64,000 nucleotides of DNA. Origin: Pricia antarctica (lineage in GTDB: Bacteria > Bacteroidota > Bacteroidia > Flavobacteriales > Flavobacteriaceae). Positions 5,209 through 28,468 of the stretch are shown in pieces. The notes under the pieces are model-generated. The model was given only the letters and a program-made list of their open reading frames with translations. It was not told where the DNA came from and searched no databases. The stretch spans positions 274,027-338,026 of the forward strand of contig NZ_FNAO01000008.1 in NCBI RefSeq assembly GCF_900101815.1, given 5' to 3'. Position 1 is the first letter of the stretch, and every line of letters begins with the position of its first letter. The translations under genes were made by a program, and so were the position numbers.

Positions 5209-5283
5209 GGGCGTCCGGGCGGGCTTTCCGCTATATTTTTTTTGCCAAAAAGCAAAAAAAGATGCCGCTGCAATCCCTGACGC
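5209..5283. repeat. Interspersed palindromic spacer repeat between metH and metF
   Basis: The plus strand reads GGGCGTCCGGGCGGGCTTTC at one end and GATGCCGCTGCAATCCC then TGACGC at the other, with an A/T-rich middle where TTTTTTTTGC is complementary to GCAAAAAAA. The ends (GCGTC and GACGC) are inverted. From general familiarity with flavobacterial genomes this is a common intergenic repeat type; only one copy was seen in this window. Confidence 0.5.
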
Positions 5284-5343
5284 ACAATTTCGCTTTTGTT
5301 CGACTTACATTGTTTAAGAAACCTTCTGGGTTTTGCAAATATA

Positions 5344-9162: not shown

Positions 9163-9364
9163 CTTTTTTCTTCTCTACTTTGACAATGCTTACTGCCCCA
9201 GACTAAACCTATCGGCTTTACTTCACCTGAAAATTATACAGCGTAAGTAAATATTTTCCGTACCTGCTCAAAAACCTTATAAGCTTGCCTAAATTCAAAC
9301 CGGCCGACAGGTAATTGTATTAAGTATCAAGTAAAGTAAGGATAGACAGCATGTCTTTTTCTAA
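9163..9364 (-). other. Leader between the SAM-I aptamer and metH
   Basis: About 200 nt of 5' untranslated RNA between the 3' side of aptamer stem P1 and the metH ATG. It must hold the expression platform. No strong hairpin followed by a U-run is obvious, so control of translation or a Rho-type mechanism is as likely as intrinsic termination. Confidence 0.4.
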
Positions 9365-9465
9365 GTTATCTGTCACGCCTTTGGCGGGATAGAACGTAGC
9401 ACCTTCTTTAAGTAAAGGGTTGCTAAGGCTTCATAGGGTCTAATCCCTCCGCCTTTCTTGATAAC
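9365..9465 (-). ncRNA. SAM-I (S-box) riboswitch upstream of metH
   Basis: On the minus strand P1 is formed by GUUAUC (9465-9460) and GAUAAC (9370-9365). Between them the S-box core follows in order: AAGAAAGGCGGAGGGAUUAG, the complementary CCCUAUGAAGCCUU, the GCAACC loop that starts P3, AAGGUGCUAC, and a P4 hairpin (CGCC, AAA, GGCG). These are the invariant elements of Rfam SAM-I. Binding of SAM is expected to lower expression of metH-metH-metF. Confidence 0.92.
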
Positions 9466-9492
9466 GTTTCAATTTTTTGAAAGAACTCACTG

Positions 9493-21431: not shown

Positions 21432-24400
21432 TTATCCTTTCTCCGCAATCCGCAAAATATCCCCAAAAACCCCTCTTGCAGTAACCGCAGCCCCGGCACC
21501 GGCGCCTTGAATGACCAGGGGATGCGCTCCGTAGGATTCCGTATAGATTTCGATGATGGAATCGGAGCCTTTTACCTGCCCAAGGGCACTTTGCTTGGGC
21601 ACGGAAATCAATTTCACTTCCAAAATACCTTTTTCCTTTTGCAGGTCGCCGTGCAAATCACCTACATAGCGGAGTACATGATTCGGCTTTTGTTCCTTTT
21701 TAATCGCGTCGAACTTTTTGTCTAGAATATCGAGATTCTGTAAAAAATTGGCTACCTCCCCTTTTCGTAAGGATTCGGGAATGAGATTTTCGATGTCAAT
21801 ATCGGAGAATTCATTGCTCAAATCGAGTTCCCGGGCTAGAATCAATAGCTTGCGGCCTACGTCATTGCCCGAAAGGTCTTCCCTTGGGTCCGGTTCGGTA
21901 TAGCCGCTATCCATAGCATCCCTTAAAATCTCGGAAAAGGTTTGGTCGGACTCGGAAAAGGTATTGAAAATATAGCTCAGCGAACCTGAAAAAACGCCTT
22001 TTATCCGGGTAATGTTCTCGCCAGAGAGATGTAACAGCTTGATGGTGTCTATCAACGGAAGTCCCGCCCCGACGTTAGTCTCATAAAGATACTGCTTTTG
22101 ATTCTTGACCAGTTCACCGCGCAACGACCGATAGTAATCGAACCCTAAAGTGTTCGCAATTTTATTGGAGGATACCAGATCAAATCCGTTTTTGACGAAA
22201 TCGACATAGTGCGTCACAAAATCTTGGCTGGCGGTATTGTCAACGGCAATCAAGTTTTCGAGATGGTTTTCGCGGGCATAGGTGATAATATCCTCAATTG
22301 TATAGGGAATCCCCTTTTCCTCGATGCCCTTTTTCCAATTTTTGGATATGCCCTTTTTGTCCAAAATGACCTTGCGGGAATTGGCAATTGCAAAAATCTT
22401 TACATCAATGCCCTTTCTCTTTTCGATGGTTTTGGCGGATTTCAAAATCTGATCGATAAGCGTACCCCCAACGTTTCCATGGCCGAACAAGGCCAGGTTT
22501 ATTTTATTGCTGATTCCAAAAATCCGGCCGTGCATGACGTTCAAAGCCTTGTGGAGATCTATTTTTTTGACTACAAGACTGACGTTCTTTCCGGAAACCG
22601 TATTGTTGAACAACAGCGGTACAATCTGATTTTTGATCAAGGCATTATACGGAAGGTGAAAGGTACTGAGATCTTGACCTACAATAGAAATGACCGATAC
22701 TTCTTCTAAAACCGTGATCATGTTAATATCCCTGCTCACATAGTCGCCCTCGAACTCGGCATCCAAGGCCTTTTTGGCCCGTTGCGCCTTATCGGATTCC
22801 ACGACAAGTCCGATACCTCGCTCCGAGGAGCCTTGCGATATGATACTAACACTGATGTTGTTTCTTTCAAGCGTCTTAAAAATACGGGCATCGATGCCTA
22901 CTTTTCCCAGAAGTCCCCTACCCTCCAGATTGATCAGGGATACATTTTCGATTACGGAAAGGGATTTTATGCCGTCTTTTTCGGTCTTGGCACTGATCAA
23001 GGTACCCTCGTTATCATTGTTGAAGGTATTCAATATCCGAAGTGGAATGTTCTTTTCTATTAACGGGATGATGGTTTTTGCATGCAAAATCGTCGCCCCG
23101 AAATTGGCCAGCTCGTTGGCCTCACCATACGAGAGGTTGGCAATTCGCCGGGCATCGGATACCATATCGGGATTGGCAGTGAAAATACCATCGACATGGG
23201 TATAATTCTGAAGTTCCTCCGCATTTAGGAAGTTGGCGAACAAGGCGGCGGAATAGTTACTGCCGTTCCTTCCCAAAGTGGTAGTATCCCCATTTTCATC
23301 GGAAGCGATAAACCCGGTGATAATGGGTATCGCGTCGTGATCAAGCCGCTCGAACCTTTTCAGGATATTTTCTTTGGATTCCGCTTCCAGCACCGAGGCG
23401 TCCCCAAAATTGGAATCCGTTTTCACTAACTGCCTTGTATCCAGCAACTGTGCATTTATTCCTTTTTCCTGTAGCAATTGGGTGACCACTTTTCCGGAAA
23501 TCAGCTCCCCGAAAGAGAGCACCTGGTCTTTTGTCTTTGCACTGTAATCCCCCAAAAGCGTCACCCCTTCAAGAAGTTTTGCCAAGGCTTTAAACTCGGT
23601 GGAAAGGTCAATATTTTCGAAGCTGTGTTGCTGATATTTTTCGAGGGCCTCTAAATCCTTTTTATATGCTTTTCGCTTGGCGGCCTTGTTCAGCAGTGTT
23701 TCCAGCTGGTCGGTCGCTTTTTCCCTAGCGGACAAGACTACCGCGATGTGTTCTCCTGCCTTCACCTTGCCAGTGACAATATCCAGCACCCTGTTGATGC
23801 CTTCACCATTGGCTAATGATCTTCCCCCGAACTTCAACACCTTGATACGTTCGGCCTTTCCGTTCGTATCAAAAACGGGCTTTAGCAACTGCTCCATTTG
23901 CTCGAACTCGATCAAAAAGGCATCATGGCCGTGCAGCGAATTGACCTCCCCGTAGGTGACGTTGCTGCGGGCCTGCGCAAGGCGTTTAAATGTATCCTTA
24001 TTTTCCTGCGCCGTAAAAAACAGGTCTGAATCGACGCCGATGATATGGATGTTGGTATCACTATTCTGCAAATTGGCAAAATTGTCCTGTCCGTTTCGGG
24101 TGACGTCGATAGTCTTTAGCAATTGGTTCATCAATTTGTAGGCGGACAACTGAAAGCGTTCCTGTAATTTGTCCCCGTGATGCATCAGCCAACTTTCGAC
24201 GTTAAAGACCTGGAGCTCTTCGTTAGTGCTTCGCTTGAAACGCTGCTTAAACGATTCTGGCGTACGGTAGCACAACATGGCATGCATGCGCGCGTCGTGT
24301 ACAGGCTGTTTCGAGTTCACCAAAAACTGCTCCTGTATCTGGCAATTAGCGATCAACCAGTCGGTAGATTTCCAATCGGAGGCCACCGGAACCAAATGCT

Positions 24401-24818
24401 CCGTAATTTTGGGATTCATGGCGGCCATCTCCCAAGCGATGCCTCCGCCTAAAGATCCGCCGATAATGGCAAAAAGCCTGTTGATCTTCAGCTGCTTCAA
24501 TCCCCATAAAAAAATACGGGCCATATCGCCGGCCACAAAATCCTTGTAATTCTCGATGATGAATTTGTCATGGCCGTTACCGGGTATATTGAACGATAGT
24601 ATCGTATATTTATCGGTATCGATGCGCTTACCTTCCCCGATAAGGGCCGACCACCAGCCCTCTTCTCCCGTTACGTTGGAATTCCCCGTCAGGGCGTGGT
24701 TGACTAGAACAATGGGTGCGGAATGCAGGTCGCGGCCGAACAGTTCGTACGAAAGTGTTATGTCTTGGGTGACACCGCTAAGCGTGGTGTAGCCTTTTAG
24801 TTTTAAGTGGTAAAGCAT
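21432..24818 (-). CDS. MetX-like acyltransferase / aspartate kinase / homoserine dehydrogenase fusion
   Basis: A 1128-residue three-domain protein. Residues 1-315 are an alpha/beta hydrolase of the homoserine O-acetyltransferase (MetX) type: HALTGNS, nucleophile Ser122 in GGSLGGG, and Asp265 and His298 as likely triad partners. From 325 an aspartate kinase starts with KFGGRS and runs through two ACT domains (LINLEGRGLLGKVGIDARIF). From about 785 a homoserine dehydrogenase starts with FGHGNVGG and ends in the usual VIQGAGAGAAVTARGVFGD-type segment. It links the first step of the aspartate pathway to homoserine and its activation; only aspartate-semialdehyde dehydrogenase is missing. Between metY and metZ. 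Confidence 0.93.
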   Translation of the reverse strand: MLYHLKLKGYTTLSGVTQDITLSYELFGRDLHSAPIVLVNHALTGNSNVTGEEGWWSALIGEGKRIDTDKYTILSFNIPGNGHDKFIIENYKDFVAGDMARIFLWGLKQLKINRLFAIIGGSLGGGIAWEMAAMNPKITEHLVPVASDWKSTDWLIANCQIQEQFLVNSKQPVHDARMHAMLCYRTPESFKQRFKRSTNEELQVFNVESWLMHHGDKLQERFQLSAYKLMNQLLKTIDVTRNGQDNFANLQNSDTNIHIIGVDSDLFFTAQENKDTFKRLAQARSNVTYGEVNSLHGHDAFLIEFEQMEQLLKPVFDTNGKAERIKVLKFGGRSLANGEGINRVLDIVTGKVKAGEHIAVVLSAREKATDQLETLLNKAAKRKAYKKDLEALEKYQQHSFENIDLSTEFKALAKLLEGVTLLGDYSAKTKDQVLSFGELISGKVVTQLLQEKGINAQLLDTRQLVKTDSNFGDASVLEAESKENILKRFERLDHDAIPIITGFIASDENGDTTTLGRNGSNYSAALFANFLNAEELQNYTHVDGIFTANPDMVSDARRIANLSYGEANELANFGATILHAKTIIPLIEKNIPLRILNTFNNDNEGTLISAKTEKDGIKSLSVIENVSLINLEGRGLLGKVGIDARIFKTLERNNISVSIISQGSSERGIGLVVESDKAQRAKKALDAEFEGDYVSRDINMITVLEEVSVISIVGQDLSTFHLPYNALIKNQIVPLLFNNTVSGKNVSLVVKKIDLHKALNVMHGRIFGISNKINLALFGHGNVGGTLIDQILKSAKTIEKRKGIDVKIFAIANSRKVILDKKGISKNWKKGIEEKGIPYTIEDIITYARENHLENLIAVDNTASQDFVTHYVDFVKNGFDLVSSNKIANTLGFDYYRSLRGELVKNQKQYLYETNVGAGLPLIDTIKLLHLSGENITRIKGVFSGSLSYIFNTFSESDQTFSEILRDAMDSGYTEPDPREDLSGNDVGRKLLILARELDLSNEFSDIDIENLIPESLRKGEVANFLQNLDILDKKFDAIKKEQKPNHVLRYVGDLHGDLQKEKGILEVKLISVPKQSALGQVKGSDSIIEIYTESYGAHPLVIQGAGAGAAVTARGVFGDILRIAEKG

Positions 24819-24939: not shown

Positions 24940-26220
24940 CTATTTTTCAAGGGTCGCAAAGGCAGTTTCAAGATCGGCTTTCAGGTCTTCAAGATCCTCA
25001 AGGCCTACCGACAAACGGATCAGGTCTTTGGTAACGCCCGTAGATTCCTGAGCGGCATCGTCCAACTGTTGGTGGGTGGTGCTCGCGGGGTGGATGATCA
25101 AAGATTTGCTATCCCCGATATTCGCCAATAACGAAAAGAGCTTGGTGTTGTCCGCCATCTTTTTTGCCGATTCGAATCCGCCTTTGACCCCGAAAGTTAT
25201 CAATCCGCTTTGCCCTTTGGGTAGGTAAGCCTGGGCTTGTTTGAAATATTTGCTCGATTTCAGTCCCGGATAGTTGACCCAGGTCACCTCGTCCCTTCCT
25301 TGCAGCCATTCGGCAAGTGACAAGGCGTTTTCGCTGATATGCTTCATACGCACACTGAGCGTCTCCAAGCCCTGAATGATCTGCCAAGAATTGAACGGAC
25401 TCGCGGCCCCCCCAAAATCCCTTAATCCTTCAATTCTTACTTTGGCTATAAAGGCCGCCGGCCCCAAAGCTTCGTGATAAACCAGGCCATGATAGCCGGC
25501 CGAAGGTTCCGTAAATTCCGGAAACTTACCGTTACCATAATCAAAGGTACCCGCATCGATAATAGCACCACCAAGGGCAGTACCATTACCGTTAATATAT
25601 TTGGTAAGGGCATGGATGACGATATTGGCCCCGTATTCGATCGGATTCAAGAGCGCAGGAGTGGCGACGGTATTATCAACGATAAAGGGGATTTTAGCGG
25701 CTTTTGCCACGGAAGCAATGGCCTTTAAATCCAATACATCCAATTTCGGATTGCCTAGGGATTCCACAAAAACGGCTCTCGTATTTTCCTGTATCGCATT
25801 GGTGAAATTCGCGGTATCCGAAGCATCGACAAAAGTGGTCGTGATCCCCAATCTTGGCAGGGTTACGCTCAATAAGTTGTAGGTACCCCCGTAGAGACTG
25901 TTGCAGGCGACGATATGGTCGCCCGTTCGTAAAAGCGTCAAGAGCGCAGTCGAGATGGCCGACATGCCGGAGGCCGTCACCACGGCGGCAATTCCGCCTT
26001 CCAAAGCTGCCAAGCGCTGCTCGAGCACATCGTTGGTAGGGTTGTTTAGACGGGTGTAAATAAATCCGGTTTCCGATAAGTTGAAAAGATTCGCCGCATG
26101 ATCGGAGTCATTGAACACATACGACGTATTCTGATAAATGGGTACGGCACGGGTACCGCCATGGGCCTTTACGTCATGACCTGCATGTAAGGCGTTCGTT
26201 GAAAATTTTGGATCACTCAT
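24940..26220 (-). CDS. metY: O-acetylhomoserine aminocarboxypropyltransferase (sulfhydrylase)
   Basis: PLP-dependent enzyme making homocysteine from O-acetylhomoserine and sulfide. 426 residues is typical of MetY rather than the shorter MetB/MetZ group. Landmarks are FSTNALHAGHD at the N-terminus, YTRLNNPTNDVLEQRLAALEGG in two parts near 55-76, SLYGGTYNL, and the PLP lysine in IHALTKYINGNGTALGG near 205-221. It is the first gene after the second SAM-I riboswitch and probably heads metY-fusion-metZ. Sulfide comes from the cys operon 10 kb downstream. Confidence 0.95.
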   Translation of the reverse strand: MSDPKFSTNALHAGHDVKAHGGTRAVPIYQNTSYVFNDSDHAANLFNLSETGFIYTRLNNPTNDVLEQRLAALEGGIAAVVTASGMSAISTALLTLLRTGDHIVACNSLYGGTYNLLSVTLPRLGITTTFVDASDTANFTNAIQENTRAVFVESLGNPKLDVLDLKAIASVAKAAKIPFIVDNTVATPALLNPIEYGANIVIHALTKYINGNGTALGGAIIDAGTFDYGNGKFPEFTEPSAGYHGLVYHEALGPAAFIAKVRIEGLRDFGGAASPFNSWQIIQGLETLSVRMKHISENALSLAEWLQGRDEVTWVNYPGLKSSKYFKQAQAYLPKGQSGLITFGVKGGFESAKKMADNTKLFSLLANIGDSKSLIIHPASTTHQQLDDAAQESTGVTKDLIRLSVGLEDLEDLKADLETAFATLEK

Positions 26221-26519
26221 TATTTTTGGTTTTAATTGTTAATATTTTGCTTTAAAGCATTCGGAACATCGTACCCAAAGGCAGACCATCCTATATAAAC
26301 AGGATAGCCAAAATTAATTAGAGATAGTTTTGAAATATGTGATTGAATTTTTTATAGGCTTTTTTGTGCAGTACTAGACAAAATTTTCAAGCATAGCAGG
26401 GCTACAGTTTAAAATTTTAACGACGTAATGCGCAAAAGAAGACATAAAAAACAATCGACGTGTTTTAAAACAGTCTCTGGGCTATGAAGAAAGAAAATTA
26501 CGGGAAGTAATTCGTTTAT
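26221..26519 (-). other. Long leader between the SAM-I aptamer and metY
   Basis: About 300 nt of transcribed leader. It carries one copy of a dispersed repeat (core 26377-26422) and a hairpin with ATCCT and AGGAT arms near 26290-26306. No U-tailed terminator is evident. The repeat may have been inserted into the expression platform. Confidence 0.4.
26377..26422 (-). repeat. Dispersed repeat, copy A
   Basis: On the minus strand the core starts CGTTAAAATTTTAAACTG and ends CTTGAAAATTTTGTC. It matches copy B (63206-63252) at nearly every position, and weaker similarity continues for about 25 bases on both sides. The core is an imperfect palindrome of AAAATTTT arms around a GC-rich centre. Confidence 0.6.
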
Positions 26520-26665
26520 GTTATCTGCCAAGATACTGAAAACCCCCAATTTTGGGGCAGCACTTGATAGAATGTAGCACCTTCTCCAAGCATGCCGATA
26601 AGTATCGGAAGCCAGAGGGTTGCTAAGGTTTCAAAGGGTCTAATCCCTCCACCTTTCTTGATAAC
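26520..26665 (-). ncRNA. SAM-I (S-box) riboswitch upstream of metY
   Basis: P1 is GUUAUC (26520-26525 side) with GAUAAC (26660-26665 side). The minus strand then reads AAGAAAGGUGGAGGGAUUAG, CCCUUUGAAACCUUAGCAACC, AAGGUGCUAC: the S-box core, almost identical to the metH copy. It is 45 nt longer because P3 carries an extra hairpin (CCGATACTTATCGG) and P4 a longer stem (CCCCAAAATTGGGG). It should repress metY and probably the fusion gene and metZ when SAM is abundant. Confidence 0.92.
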
Positions 26666-26695
26666 CGATCAGTATGTGTTTGAACTTTTGAAAAA

Positions 26696-26815: not shown

Positions 26816-28072
26816 CTACAACCCAAAAGCCGCTTTAACCTCCTCGACCCTATCCAACTTCTCCCAAGTAAACAGCTCTACTTGCTTTTCAACCCTACCA
26901 CTGTACGGCGATTCAAAGACTTTGTTGACCGTTACAGGTTCTTTGCCCATATGCCCATAGGCAGCCGTTTCCAAATAGATCGGATTTCGTAATTTTAGGC
27001 GTTTTTCAATGGCAAAAGGACGCATATCAAACAATTCGGCCACTTTTATGGCGATTTCACCATCGTTCAATGCTACGTTCGAAGTGCCATAGGTATCCAC
27101 ATAAATAGAGGTAGGCTCGACGACCCCGATGGCATAACTAACTTGAACCAACAGTTCTTCGGCCACCCCGGCGGCGACCAAATTTTTAGCGGCATGACGG
27201 GCGGCATAGGCAGCACTTCGATCGACCTTGCTGGGGTCTTTTCCACTAAAGGCACCTCCGCCATGGGCGCCTTTTCCACCATAGGTGTCCACAATAATTT
27301 TTCGGCCCGTAAGCCCGGTGTCGCCGTGTGGGCCTCCGATGACGAATTTTCCGGTGGGATTAATGTGATAGGTGATTTGATCGTCGAACAGTTTTTGTAT
27401 CGCAGGCGGCAACTGTGCCTTGACCCTGGGTATCAAGATAGAAACAATATCCTTTTTAATCCTTGAGAGCATCTTTTCGTCGTCGGTGTCGAACTCGTCG
27501 TGTTGTGTAGAAACCACGATGGTGTCAATACGCTGCGGTAGGTTATCTTCCGAATATTCAATGGTAACTTGAGCCTTGGCGTCGGGCCGTAGATAATCAA
27601 TTTCCTTATTTTCCCTCCGTAAATCGGCCAGCGCCTGAAGTATTTTGTGAGAAATATCCAAAGCTAGGGGCATGTAATTGTCCGTTTCCTTTGTGGCATA
27701 GCCGAACATCATTCCTTGGTCTCCCGCGCCCTGCATCTCCTTTGATTCCCGATCCACGCCTTGATTGATATCCTTCGATTGTTCATGAATGAGTGAAATC
27801 ACCCCGCATGAATCACCGCTGAACTGATATTCACCGTTCGTATATCCAATTTTATTGATAACATCCCTGGCAATTTGCTGTACATCTAGGTAAGTGGTGC
27901 TCTTTACCTCACCGGCCAATACGACCTGCCCGGTGGTGACCAAAGTTTCACAGGCTACCTTACTTTCGGGGTCGAAAGCCAAAAAATGATCTAACAAAGC
28001 ATCGCTGATCTGGTCGGCAATTTTATCGGGATGACCTTCACTAACGGATTCTGATGTAAATAAATAGGACAT
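26816..28072 (-). CDS. metK: S-adenosylmethionine synthetase
   Basis: Makes SAM from methionine and ATP. 418 residues from the ATG at 28072, which gives the standard [18 protein letters not shown]-terminus; an in-frame GTG three codons earlier is less likely. The other MetK signatures are present: [12 protein letters not shown] near 115-126, the [21 protein letters not shown] stretch near 255-275, and GGGAFSGKD (P-loop-like) after it. Transcribed alone towards metY, with a SAM-II-like aptamer in its leader, so the product probably represses its own synthesis. Confidence 0.97.
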
Positions 28073-28141
28073 AACTTTCACTTTTTAGGATAGAAACGGA
28101 TTTGAAAGTATCGCCAAAAGAAGATGATAAAAACTAATTTA

Positions 28142-28296
28142 TCAACTGCTTTAGCATTTTTTATGCTGAATTTATTTCAGCACCTAGCCCGATCGAAGCT
28201 GGCTGCCGAACTGGTTTCAGCATCTCACTTCCTTAAAAGCTAGGTCCTGAAACAAGTTCAGGACAAGAGGTTGCAATCAGTCAAATCCTTCCTCTT
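28142..28296 (-). ncRNA. Candidate SAM-II riboswitch with expanded middle loop
   Basis: On the minus strand AAGAGG and CCUCUU (28296-28291 and 28270-28265) form P1 around a loop reading GAUUUGACUGAUUGCAA, very close to the SAM-II loop. Far downstream, AAUGCUAAAGCAGUUGA (28158-28142) holds the conserved GCUAAA and pairs CAGUUGA with UUGACUG of the loop (7 bp), the hallmark pseudoknot P2. Between P1 and this 3' strand lie 107 nt (28158-28264) instead of the usual few, folding as hairpins TGCTGA/TCAGCA, CCTAG/CTAGG and GTCCTGA/TCAGGAC. About 70 nt separate it from metK. The class call is from memory of the consensus; no covariance search was run. Confidence 0.75.
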
Positions 28297-28308
28297 TTAA
28301 TAACAGTT

Positions 28309-28316
28309 CAAAAGTA
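28309..28316 (-). promoter_or_regulatory. -10 box of metK
   Basis: Perfect TACTTTTG on the minus strand. The predicted start, near 28302, is just six bases before the P1 stem of the SAM-II-like element, so the aptamer would be at the very 5' end of the mRNA. No good -33 TTG at standard spacing. Confidence 0.5.
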
Positions 28317-28468
28317 CATAAATGCCAAGGAAATAAAAATTATAAGTCCATTGGATTAGAAATTTTTGAGCTTGTTTGCGTTTATAATCGCAACGCATTC
28401 TTCATCTTCCCCAAGATACTTTGTATATTGTACTCCCCATTTACCACTAACCCTTAATCTGATTCTTT

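Follow-up and report, generated by a model that had tools for sequence, protein, structure and literature searches.

A probable long-loop SAM-II riboswitch at metK of Pricia antarctica with a long palindromic link and a downstream strand complementary to its aptamer

The leader of metK in Pricia antarctica raises the question of what kind of RNA switch it encodes, and how such a switch could work with more than 100 nucleotides inserted between two of its strands. We analyzed a stretch of 64,000 nt (contig NZ_FNAO01000008.1, positions 274,027 to 338,026) of this 4.85 Mb genome, hereafter the window, in whose numbering all coordinates are given. The gene downstream of the leader is metK, a methionine/SAM gene, as shown by TIGR01034 (508.8 bits) and three S-AdoMet synthetase Pfam domains; its closest titled MetK relatives are from Euzebyella saccharophila and Flagellimonas flava (87% each, the gene's own record possibly being left out). 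A program-made list of open reading frames begins metK at GTG 28081, and the start codon taken here is ATG 28072.

An initial annotation had read this leader as a SAM-II-like aptamer. The elements it named are all present on the minus strand: P1, formed by AAGAGG (28296-28291) and CCTCTT (28270-28265), the loop GGATTTGACTGATTGCAA, and a distant 3' strand (28158-28142) whose CAGTTGA is complementary to TTGACTG of the loop (28284-28278) and can form the pseudoknot. The leader is organized as follows, from the promoter to the gene, with the basis of each assignment in brackets.

28309-28316, minus strand: promoter box of the -7 type, TACTTTTG (TAnnTTTG; sequence, and frequency in relatives' leaders)
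28291-28296, minus strand: 5' arm of P1, AAGAGG (RF01726 alignment; covariation in 34 relatives)
28272-28290, minus strand: joiner, L1 and 5' strand of the pseudoknot, AAGGATTTGACTGATTGCA (RF01726 alignment; ATTTG and TTGC unchanged across 34 relatives)
28265-28270, minus strand: 3' arm of P1, CCTCTT (RF01726 alignment; covariation)
28159-28264, minus strand: structured link (insertion) of 106 nt, ending in an A-run before AATGC (length; fold z -7.4)
28244-28264, minus strand: palindrome 1, GTCCTGAACTTGTTTCAGGAC (15-mer core also in the links of G003 and G377)
28202-28222, minus strand: palindrome 2, TGCTGAAACCAGTTCGGCAGC, at the tip of the link (sequence; part of the nested fold)
28164-28182, minus strand: palindrome 3, TGCTGAAATAAATTCAGCA (sequence searches)
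28142-28158, minus strand: 3' strand, AATGCTAAAGCAGTTGA, with P2a TGC, GCTAAA and P2b CAGTTGA (RF01726 alignment; conservation; covariation)
28113-28120, minus strand: doubtful anti-3' segment, CTTTTGGC, able to pair with GCTAAAG (motif count; duplex test equal to control)
28092-28114, minus strand: anti-5' strand, GCGATACTTTCAAATCCGTTTCT, a complement, interrupted by small loops, of L1 and the 5' pseudoknot strand (duplex tests; minimum-energy fold of the leader)
28103-28109, minus strand: ACTTTCA, candidate start-blocking arm with its partner at 28080-28074 (window p 0.22; family-wide null)
28074-28080, minus strand: TGAAAGT directly before the start codon, putative partner of the arm at 28109-28103 (same helix test)
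26816-28072, minus strand: metK coding sequence, ATG at 28072 (TIGR01034; Pfam domains)

The Rfam model RF01726 ("SAM-II long loop") aligns end to end with positions 28300-28141 of the minus strand (43.7 bits, E 3.6e-7). Because this is 0.3 bits lower than the curated gathering score of 44 bits, the default Rfam scan of the whole window holds no RF01726 entry. The aptamers of three genomes of the same genus, which have shorter links, score above the cut-off (G001 66.1, G002 70.6 and G003 53.6 bits), and other weak members of the family miss it as well (14 of 80). We infer that the long insert caused the loss of score. A search of 28000-28450 with the SAM-II model RF00521 yielded nothing at E values up to 5. 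Among relatives, SAM-II matches were found in 53 of the 60 genomes of a relatives search and in 373 of 397 genomes of the family, taken as Flavobacteriaceae, so that the aptamer by itself is ordinary. A core pattern allowing up to three mismatches, run on 20 of the 24 family genomes that lack a match, returned six sites in five genomes, all with three mismatches, and we rejected these as hidden aptamers.

We then assessed covariation in 34 relatives with short links, over 12 pairs of P1, P2a and P2b. Across these, 85.7% of cells are paired, compared with 21.5-43.8% in slid controls. Both sides of a pair have changed in 26 cells (13.5 in shuffles, with 0 of 500 shuffles as high), distributed over six pairs, a number equalled in 17 of 500 shuffles; additional pair types in the same 12 pairs and 34 relatives did not exceed shuffles (202 of 500). 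P1 shows both-sided changes in three of its five pairs, P2b in two of four and P2a in one of three, with 76.5-78.4% of cells paired in P2b and 96.1% in P2a. The window agrees with all 22 columns that are invariant in the 34 relatives, including the core ATTTG, TTGC, ACC, AAA and GCTAAA. Since two-sided changes exceed shuffles and pairing exceeds slid controls, P1 and the pseudoknot stand as originally proposed, and this half of the test that the initial annotation had set for itself was passed. Together with the RF01726 match, this supports the assignment at metK: as judged from alignment and covariation, the leader very probably contains a riboswitch of the SAM-II ("long loop") type, with an aptamer of a class already described. 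Such long loops were listed for Bacteroidetes in 2010, in a table of Weinberg et al. (PMC2864571), and the comparison with a compact SAM-II aptamer of 50-60 nt overlooks them.

The "perfect -10 box" that had been placed upstream is also in need of qualification. A box is there, TACTTTTG at 28316-28309, and it is of the TAnnTTTG type, which we take to be the Bacteroidetes -7 box; the interval 28000-28400 showed no site resembling a sigma-70 promoter. Of 183 leaders, 173 carry the TAnnTTTG motif within 29 nt upstream of P1; after one shuffle of each, six do.

To place the link among its relatives, we parsed it as the letters after ACC and before GCTAAA, with a limit of 170 nt, in 219 loci (including 80 from a search for MetK relatives, many of them outside the family). 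The final parse covers 184 of these; relative to the first parse, L098 and L195 were lost and three loci were gained. In the first parse, no link was found in four of 139 loci (G393, G312, G356 and G360), 181 of 183 leaders had a recognisable metK start, and the links of L016, L017, L159 and L193, which ended too early or wrongly, were all re-parsed. The first parse, without L159, underlies the contiguous-helix, motif and flank tests below, as well as the first duplex test (108/179) and the swap test on 82 representatives; the re-parse underlies the duplex test on 110/179, the swap test on 79 representatives and the counts on 101 links. Long links are over-represented, because 80 of the weakest family matches were fetched (five weak ones having been fetched earlier, and three with E 5-6e-9 being left out) together with eight stronger ones spanning 72-81 nt, and the shares of link lengths are thus not population frequencies.

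Between P1 and the 3' strand the link measures 106 nt, one less than the 107 first given. By the parsing rule, links range from 10 to 113 nt, and the 113 nt of the window are the longest of 184 leaders, the next being 86 nt. In the relatives set drawn without selection on length, 11 of 54 aptamers span at least 80 nt. Short links have a median of 12 nt (range 10-14, 48 distinct). The link of the window (28158-28266) folds far better than its shuffles (-48.5 vs -25.6, z -7.4). Three hairpins had been proposed for it, which calls for a correction: its lowest-energy fold is one long nested hairpin (-48.7 kcal/mol), and three separate hairpins (-43.7 kcal/mol), being 5 kcal/mol less stable than the nested palindrome, were rejected as the ground state. 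Since some relatives, G377 among them, adopt the three-hairpin layout, we retain it as an alternative. Folding is also a common property of long links, since 69 of 90 distinct links of at least 30 nt fold at z<-2, compared with 12 of 90 stretches of the same length taken just downstream. In 101 links of at least 30 nt, a median of 10 exterior nucleotides stay unpaired (15 in shuffles), and seven do so in the window. The hairpin therefore leaves unpaired about as many nucleotides as a short link contains, and a physically longer link keeps its effective length.

Where could such an insert come from? Two palindromes, CTGAACTTGTTTCAG and CTGAAATAAATTCAG, lie in the link of the window, whose tip carries another, imperfect copy, and the 15-mer core of palindrome 1 recurs in the links of G003 and G377. 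More broadly, CTGAA-N3-7-TTCAG is present in 20 of 101 links of at least 30 nt (18 of 91 in the first set, and in none of 50 shuffles of each). One reading is that a mobile palindromic repeat of REP or MITE type, still active, recently gave rise to the insert as one of its copies. The 15-mer is indeed dispersed in relatives: with up to one mismatch, 40 genomes hold 146 sites against 11 for a backwards control, with matches in 27 of the 40 and 0-29 sites per genome (29 in G009). The host genome does not show this abundance. Its 15-mer sites number only three, one in the metK link and two, with one mismatch each, inside the RNase P RNA gene, all of them in two structured RNA genes; CTGAA-N5-TTCAG has 12 sites against four in the control; and the whole insert is single-copy, with two partial matches at E 0.07 and 0.5. 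We rejected a repeat active in this genome on these counts. Because the insert is single-copy and 15-mer sites are so few, it is at most an old, decayed copy, and we consider a recent mobile insertion rather unlikely. Another reading sees in the insert an additional regulatory module, either a second sensor or a stabilizing arm, selected for a function of its own. This could be expected from its strong fold and from the recurrence, in several genera, of three hairpins of which the first is followed by a shared ACCT (G377, G182, G331, G374, G420, G068 and G183). However, aptamer spans vary within the genus (59 nt without insert in G002, 81 in G001 and 116 in G003), and mean column identity is 41% in nine links picked for their similar layout. 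Over the insert, no Rfam match reaches its gathering score, and a hit of the scaRNA model (E 0.0022, 29.6 against 88 bits) was taken as chance. No observation pointed to a second sensor, and we regard an extra module as improbable. Of the roles initially offered for the insert, that of an additional sensor is left without support, and that of a repeat that the pseudoknot tolerates fits best, as links range over 10-113 nt, keep a fold, vary in sequence and share a recurring palindrome. From these comparisons, the link seems to be a place where hairpins derived from repeats, or resembling them, are tolerated and persist, rather than a fresh insertion, and that of the window is extreme in length and probably neutral.

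The RNase P RNA of the host merits a separate remark. Its model match (L055 1475-1844, corresponding to C44:351893-352262 of the host genome) spans 370 nt, compared with 313-320 nt in three genomes of the same genus. Its 5' part carries a palindromic element like that of the link, at a place which we take to be P3, and its 3' hairpin reads CCCTGAAATTGTTTCAGGG. A similar hairpin occupies the 5' place in G005, and in G002 as CCGAA/TTCGG.

Comparing leaders side by side revealed a further element, a box, TCAAATCC or GTCAAATCTT, that precedes the start codon and is complementary to L1. The initial annotation made no mention of a downstream strand complementary to the aptamer, which bears more on mechanism. 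In leaders with a recognisable metK start, we determined the best helix that the 5' strand can form with the downstream region and tested it against dinucleotide shuffles. Contiguous helices reached p<=0.05 in 78 of 178 leaders with L1 alone and in 85 of 178 with L1 and the P2a strand, against 6/178 with reversed letters, 10/179 in the coding region and 7/178 upstream. A duplex energy test that allows small loops detected the pairing in 108 of 179 leaders (15/179 reversed, 7/179 for the P1 arm) and, after re-parsing, in 110 of 179 at p<=0.05 (12/179 reversed), leaving 69 of 179 in which it is not significant. Pairing also favours the partner from the same leader. Among 79 dissimilar representatives, own pairs average -14.45 kcal/mol and swapped pairs -12.21 (0 of 5000 permutations), and in 63 of 79 the own region pairs better than a typical foreign one (64 of 82 in the first parse, also 0 of 5000), with relatedness thinned by 5-mer clustering alone and related leaders not being independent. 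In the 97 of 181 leaders with a CAAAT box (55 distinct combinations), flanks anchored on CAAAT covary with L1 at three of five positions (5, 4 and 10 of 2000 permutations) and show no covariation at the two others (159 and 1001 of 2000).

In the window, the duplex reaches -16.6 kcal/mol with p 0.029 (5000 shuffles; 0.020 and 0.050 with 100), which is modest taken alone, and its contiguous helix by itself is not significant (p 0.09 with L1, 0.07 with L1 and the P2a strand). The 8-bp core, GGATTTGA with TCAAATCC, is also present in the three genomes of the same genus that were sampled, 25-26 nt before the ATG. Elsewhere box and L1 have changed in a matched manner, as AGATTTGGC with GCCAAATCT in G046 and GGATTTGGC with GCCAAGTCC in G058, and outside the family as GATTTGTGAA with TTCACAAATC in L271 (Prolixibacteraceae). 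The minimum-energy fold of the whole leader of the window is a nested form that includes the anti-5' pairing (-75.6 kcal/mol), a result that does not weigh two states against each other because the folding program cannot form the pseudoknot. Pairing probability exceeds 0.5 in 92 of 100 leaders, which is no independent test as these had been preselected for a contiguous helix at p<=0.1. We also considered an anti-3' segment. Its motif CTTTAG occurs in 31 of 178 downstream regions (4.0 in shuffles), and we rejected it as a general element since its duplex equals the reversed control (32 vs 24 of 179; 29 vs 26 of 179 after re-parsing; p 0.12-0.15 in the window); contiguous helices reached p<=0.05 in 16 of 179 leaders. 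A hairpin-like motif, GACG-N3-6-CGTC, often lies beside the anti-5' box and is found in 45 of 178 downstream regions, compared with 0.1 in shuffles. Neither the downstream complementary strand nor the link palindrome was found described in the titles and abstract openings of the open-licence papers searched.

How might this strand act? The anti-5' strand pairs with the letters of L1 and P2 that SAM-II uses, which makes the aptamer and the nested fold mutually exclusive. Without SAM, the leader would form one nested hairpin in which the 5' strand pairs with the anti-5' strand and encloses the link hairpin; with SAM, the aptamer would keep its strands and free the anti-5' strand. As metK makes SAM, SAM should lower expression. 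The metK leader is thus probably a SAM-II switch that lowers expression at high SAM, with the anti-5' strand as a nested "anti-aptamer" platform displaced by SAM. The link hairpin would lie inside both folds, which would explain its free size and sequence and why palindromic repeats live there; an RNA switch could in this manner absorb a large palindromic sequence with its core intact.

Two candidates can be put forward for the OFF step: the freed ACTTTCA could pair with TGAAAGT just before the start codon, or a C-rich, G-poor stretch could be exposed to Rho. A start-blocking helix was rejected as a general OFF step, being null across the family (12 of 179 at p<=0.05; window p 0.22), with long start-site helices only in L212 (Euzebyella, 10 bp) and G014 (11 bp). 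An intrinsic terminator was likewise rejected, none being found on the minus strand between the aptamer and the start codon; within 28000-28400 of that strand, palindrome 1 itself is the sole terminator-like site.

That lack of a terminator-like site is in line with SAM acting through Rho-dependent termination, whereby the anti-aptamer fold would cover a downstream rut site and SAM would uncover it. So is the composition of the downstream region (20.6% C, 10.5% G), C exceeding G in 176 of 181 leaders downstream compared with 100 of 181 upstream. The skew has another cause, however, since the anti-5' strand must be G-poor to match a C-poor target, and Rho is in our view a rather unlikely answer. 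The box itself might instead be a translation or transcription signal whose complementarity to L1 is incidental: TCAAATC appears in 67 of 178 regions (3.2 in shuffles), and in the 85 significant leaders the box lies at a median of 21 nt before the ATG. Yet box and L1 change together, as in G046, G058 and L271, and no permutation in 5000 matched the preference for own over swapped partners, which makes an incidental signal very improbable. We consider a putative expression platform beside the aptamer well supported on comparative grounds, and a strand that changes together with the 5' strand of the aptamer would give SAM-II in Bacteroidetes a concrete platform. The wider reading is more tentative, a shade below an even call: that in Bacteroidetes metK leaders a complementary strand forms a nested alternative hairpin that works without Shine-Dalgarno masking or an intrinsic terminator, through Rho or the start site, and that the link, structurally neutral, is where palindromic repeats of a kind also present in RNase P RNA can land or grow. 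Bacteroidetes make little use of Shine-Dalgarno signals.

Two SAM-I riboswitches (RF00162; 78.3 and 62.3 bits) share the window with SAM-II, at 9363-9467 and 26518-26667 of the minus strand. The latter aptamer spans 150 nt, compared with 105 for the other, and is similarly long in G002, G003 and G021; it is possibly another case of a tolerant arm. SAM-I was found in 28 of 37 genomes (the host included), all 28 of which also have a SAM-II match, whereas a 2007 study reported no species with both (PMC2258182). One reading frame at 21432-24818 (minus strand) fuses a stretch like the homoserine O-acetyltransferase MetX (16-319, 177.7 bits, below the curated cut-off of 331) with a bifunctional aspartate kinase/homoserine dehydrogenase I (787.6 bits). 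It adjoins a gene for O-acetylhomoserine sulfhydrylase (24940-26220), which has a SAM-I leader. A Flavo-1 RNA (RF01705, 49.8 bits) lies at 5213-5285 of the minus strand.

The Rickettsia palindromic elements and REP sequences are known cases of palindromic repeats that are kept within genes, also within those for structured RNA. The link resembles these in being a palindromic repeat inside a structured RNA, and differs in that its repeat is hardly dispersed in the host genome. Among riboswitches, the closest system is RF01726, with the same P1, L1 and pseudoknot strands and also in Bacteroidetes (PMC2864571); the link of the window, at 106 nt, is longer than in the other 183 leaders parsed, and the Rfam model stops at the aptamer, so that the anti-5' strand downstream lies outside it. 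SAM-II of alpha-proteobacteria (RF00521) has the same single P1 and P2 pseudoknot and is presumed to be an OFF switch (PMC1273637). Many proteobacterial SAM-II riboswitches are reported to have putative intrinsic terminators, and S. meliloti metA a masked Shine-Dalgarno sequence (PMC9373788). How SAM-II acts in Bacteroidetes is not stated in the portions of PMC2864571, PMC2258182, PMC9373788 and PMC1273637 consulted. In contrast to these proteobacterial systems, the window has no terminator-like site after the aptamer and, by eye, no Shine-Dalgarno-like stretch before the ATG of metK such as the one masked in S. meliloti metA.
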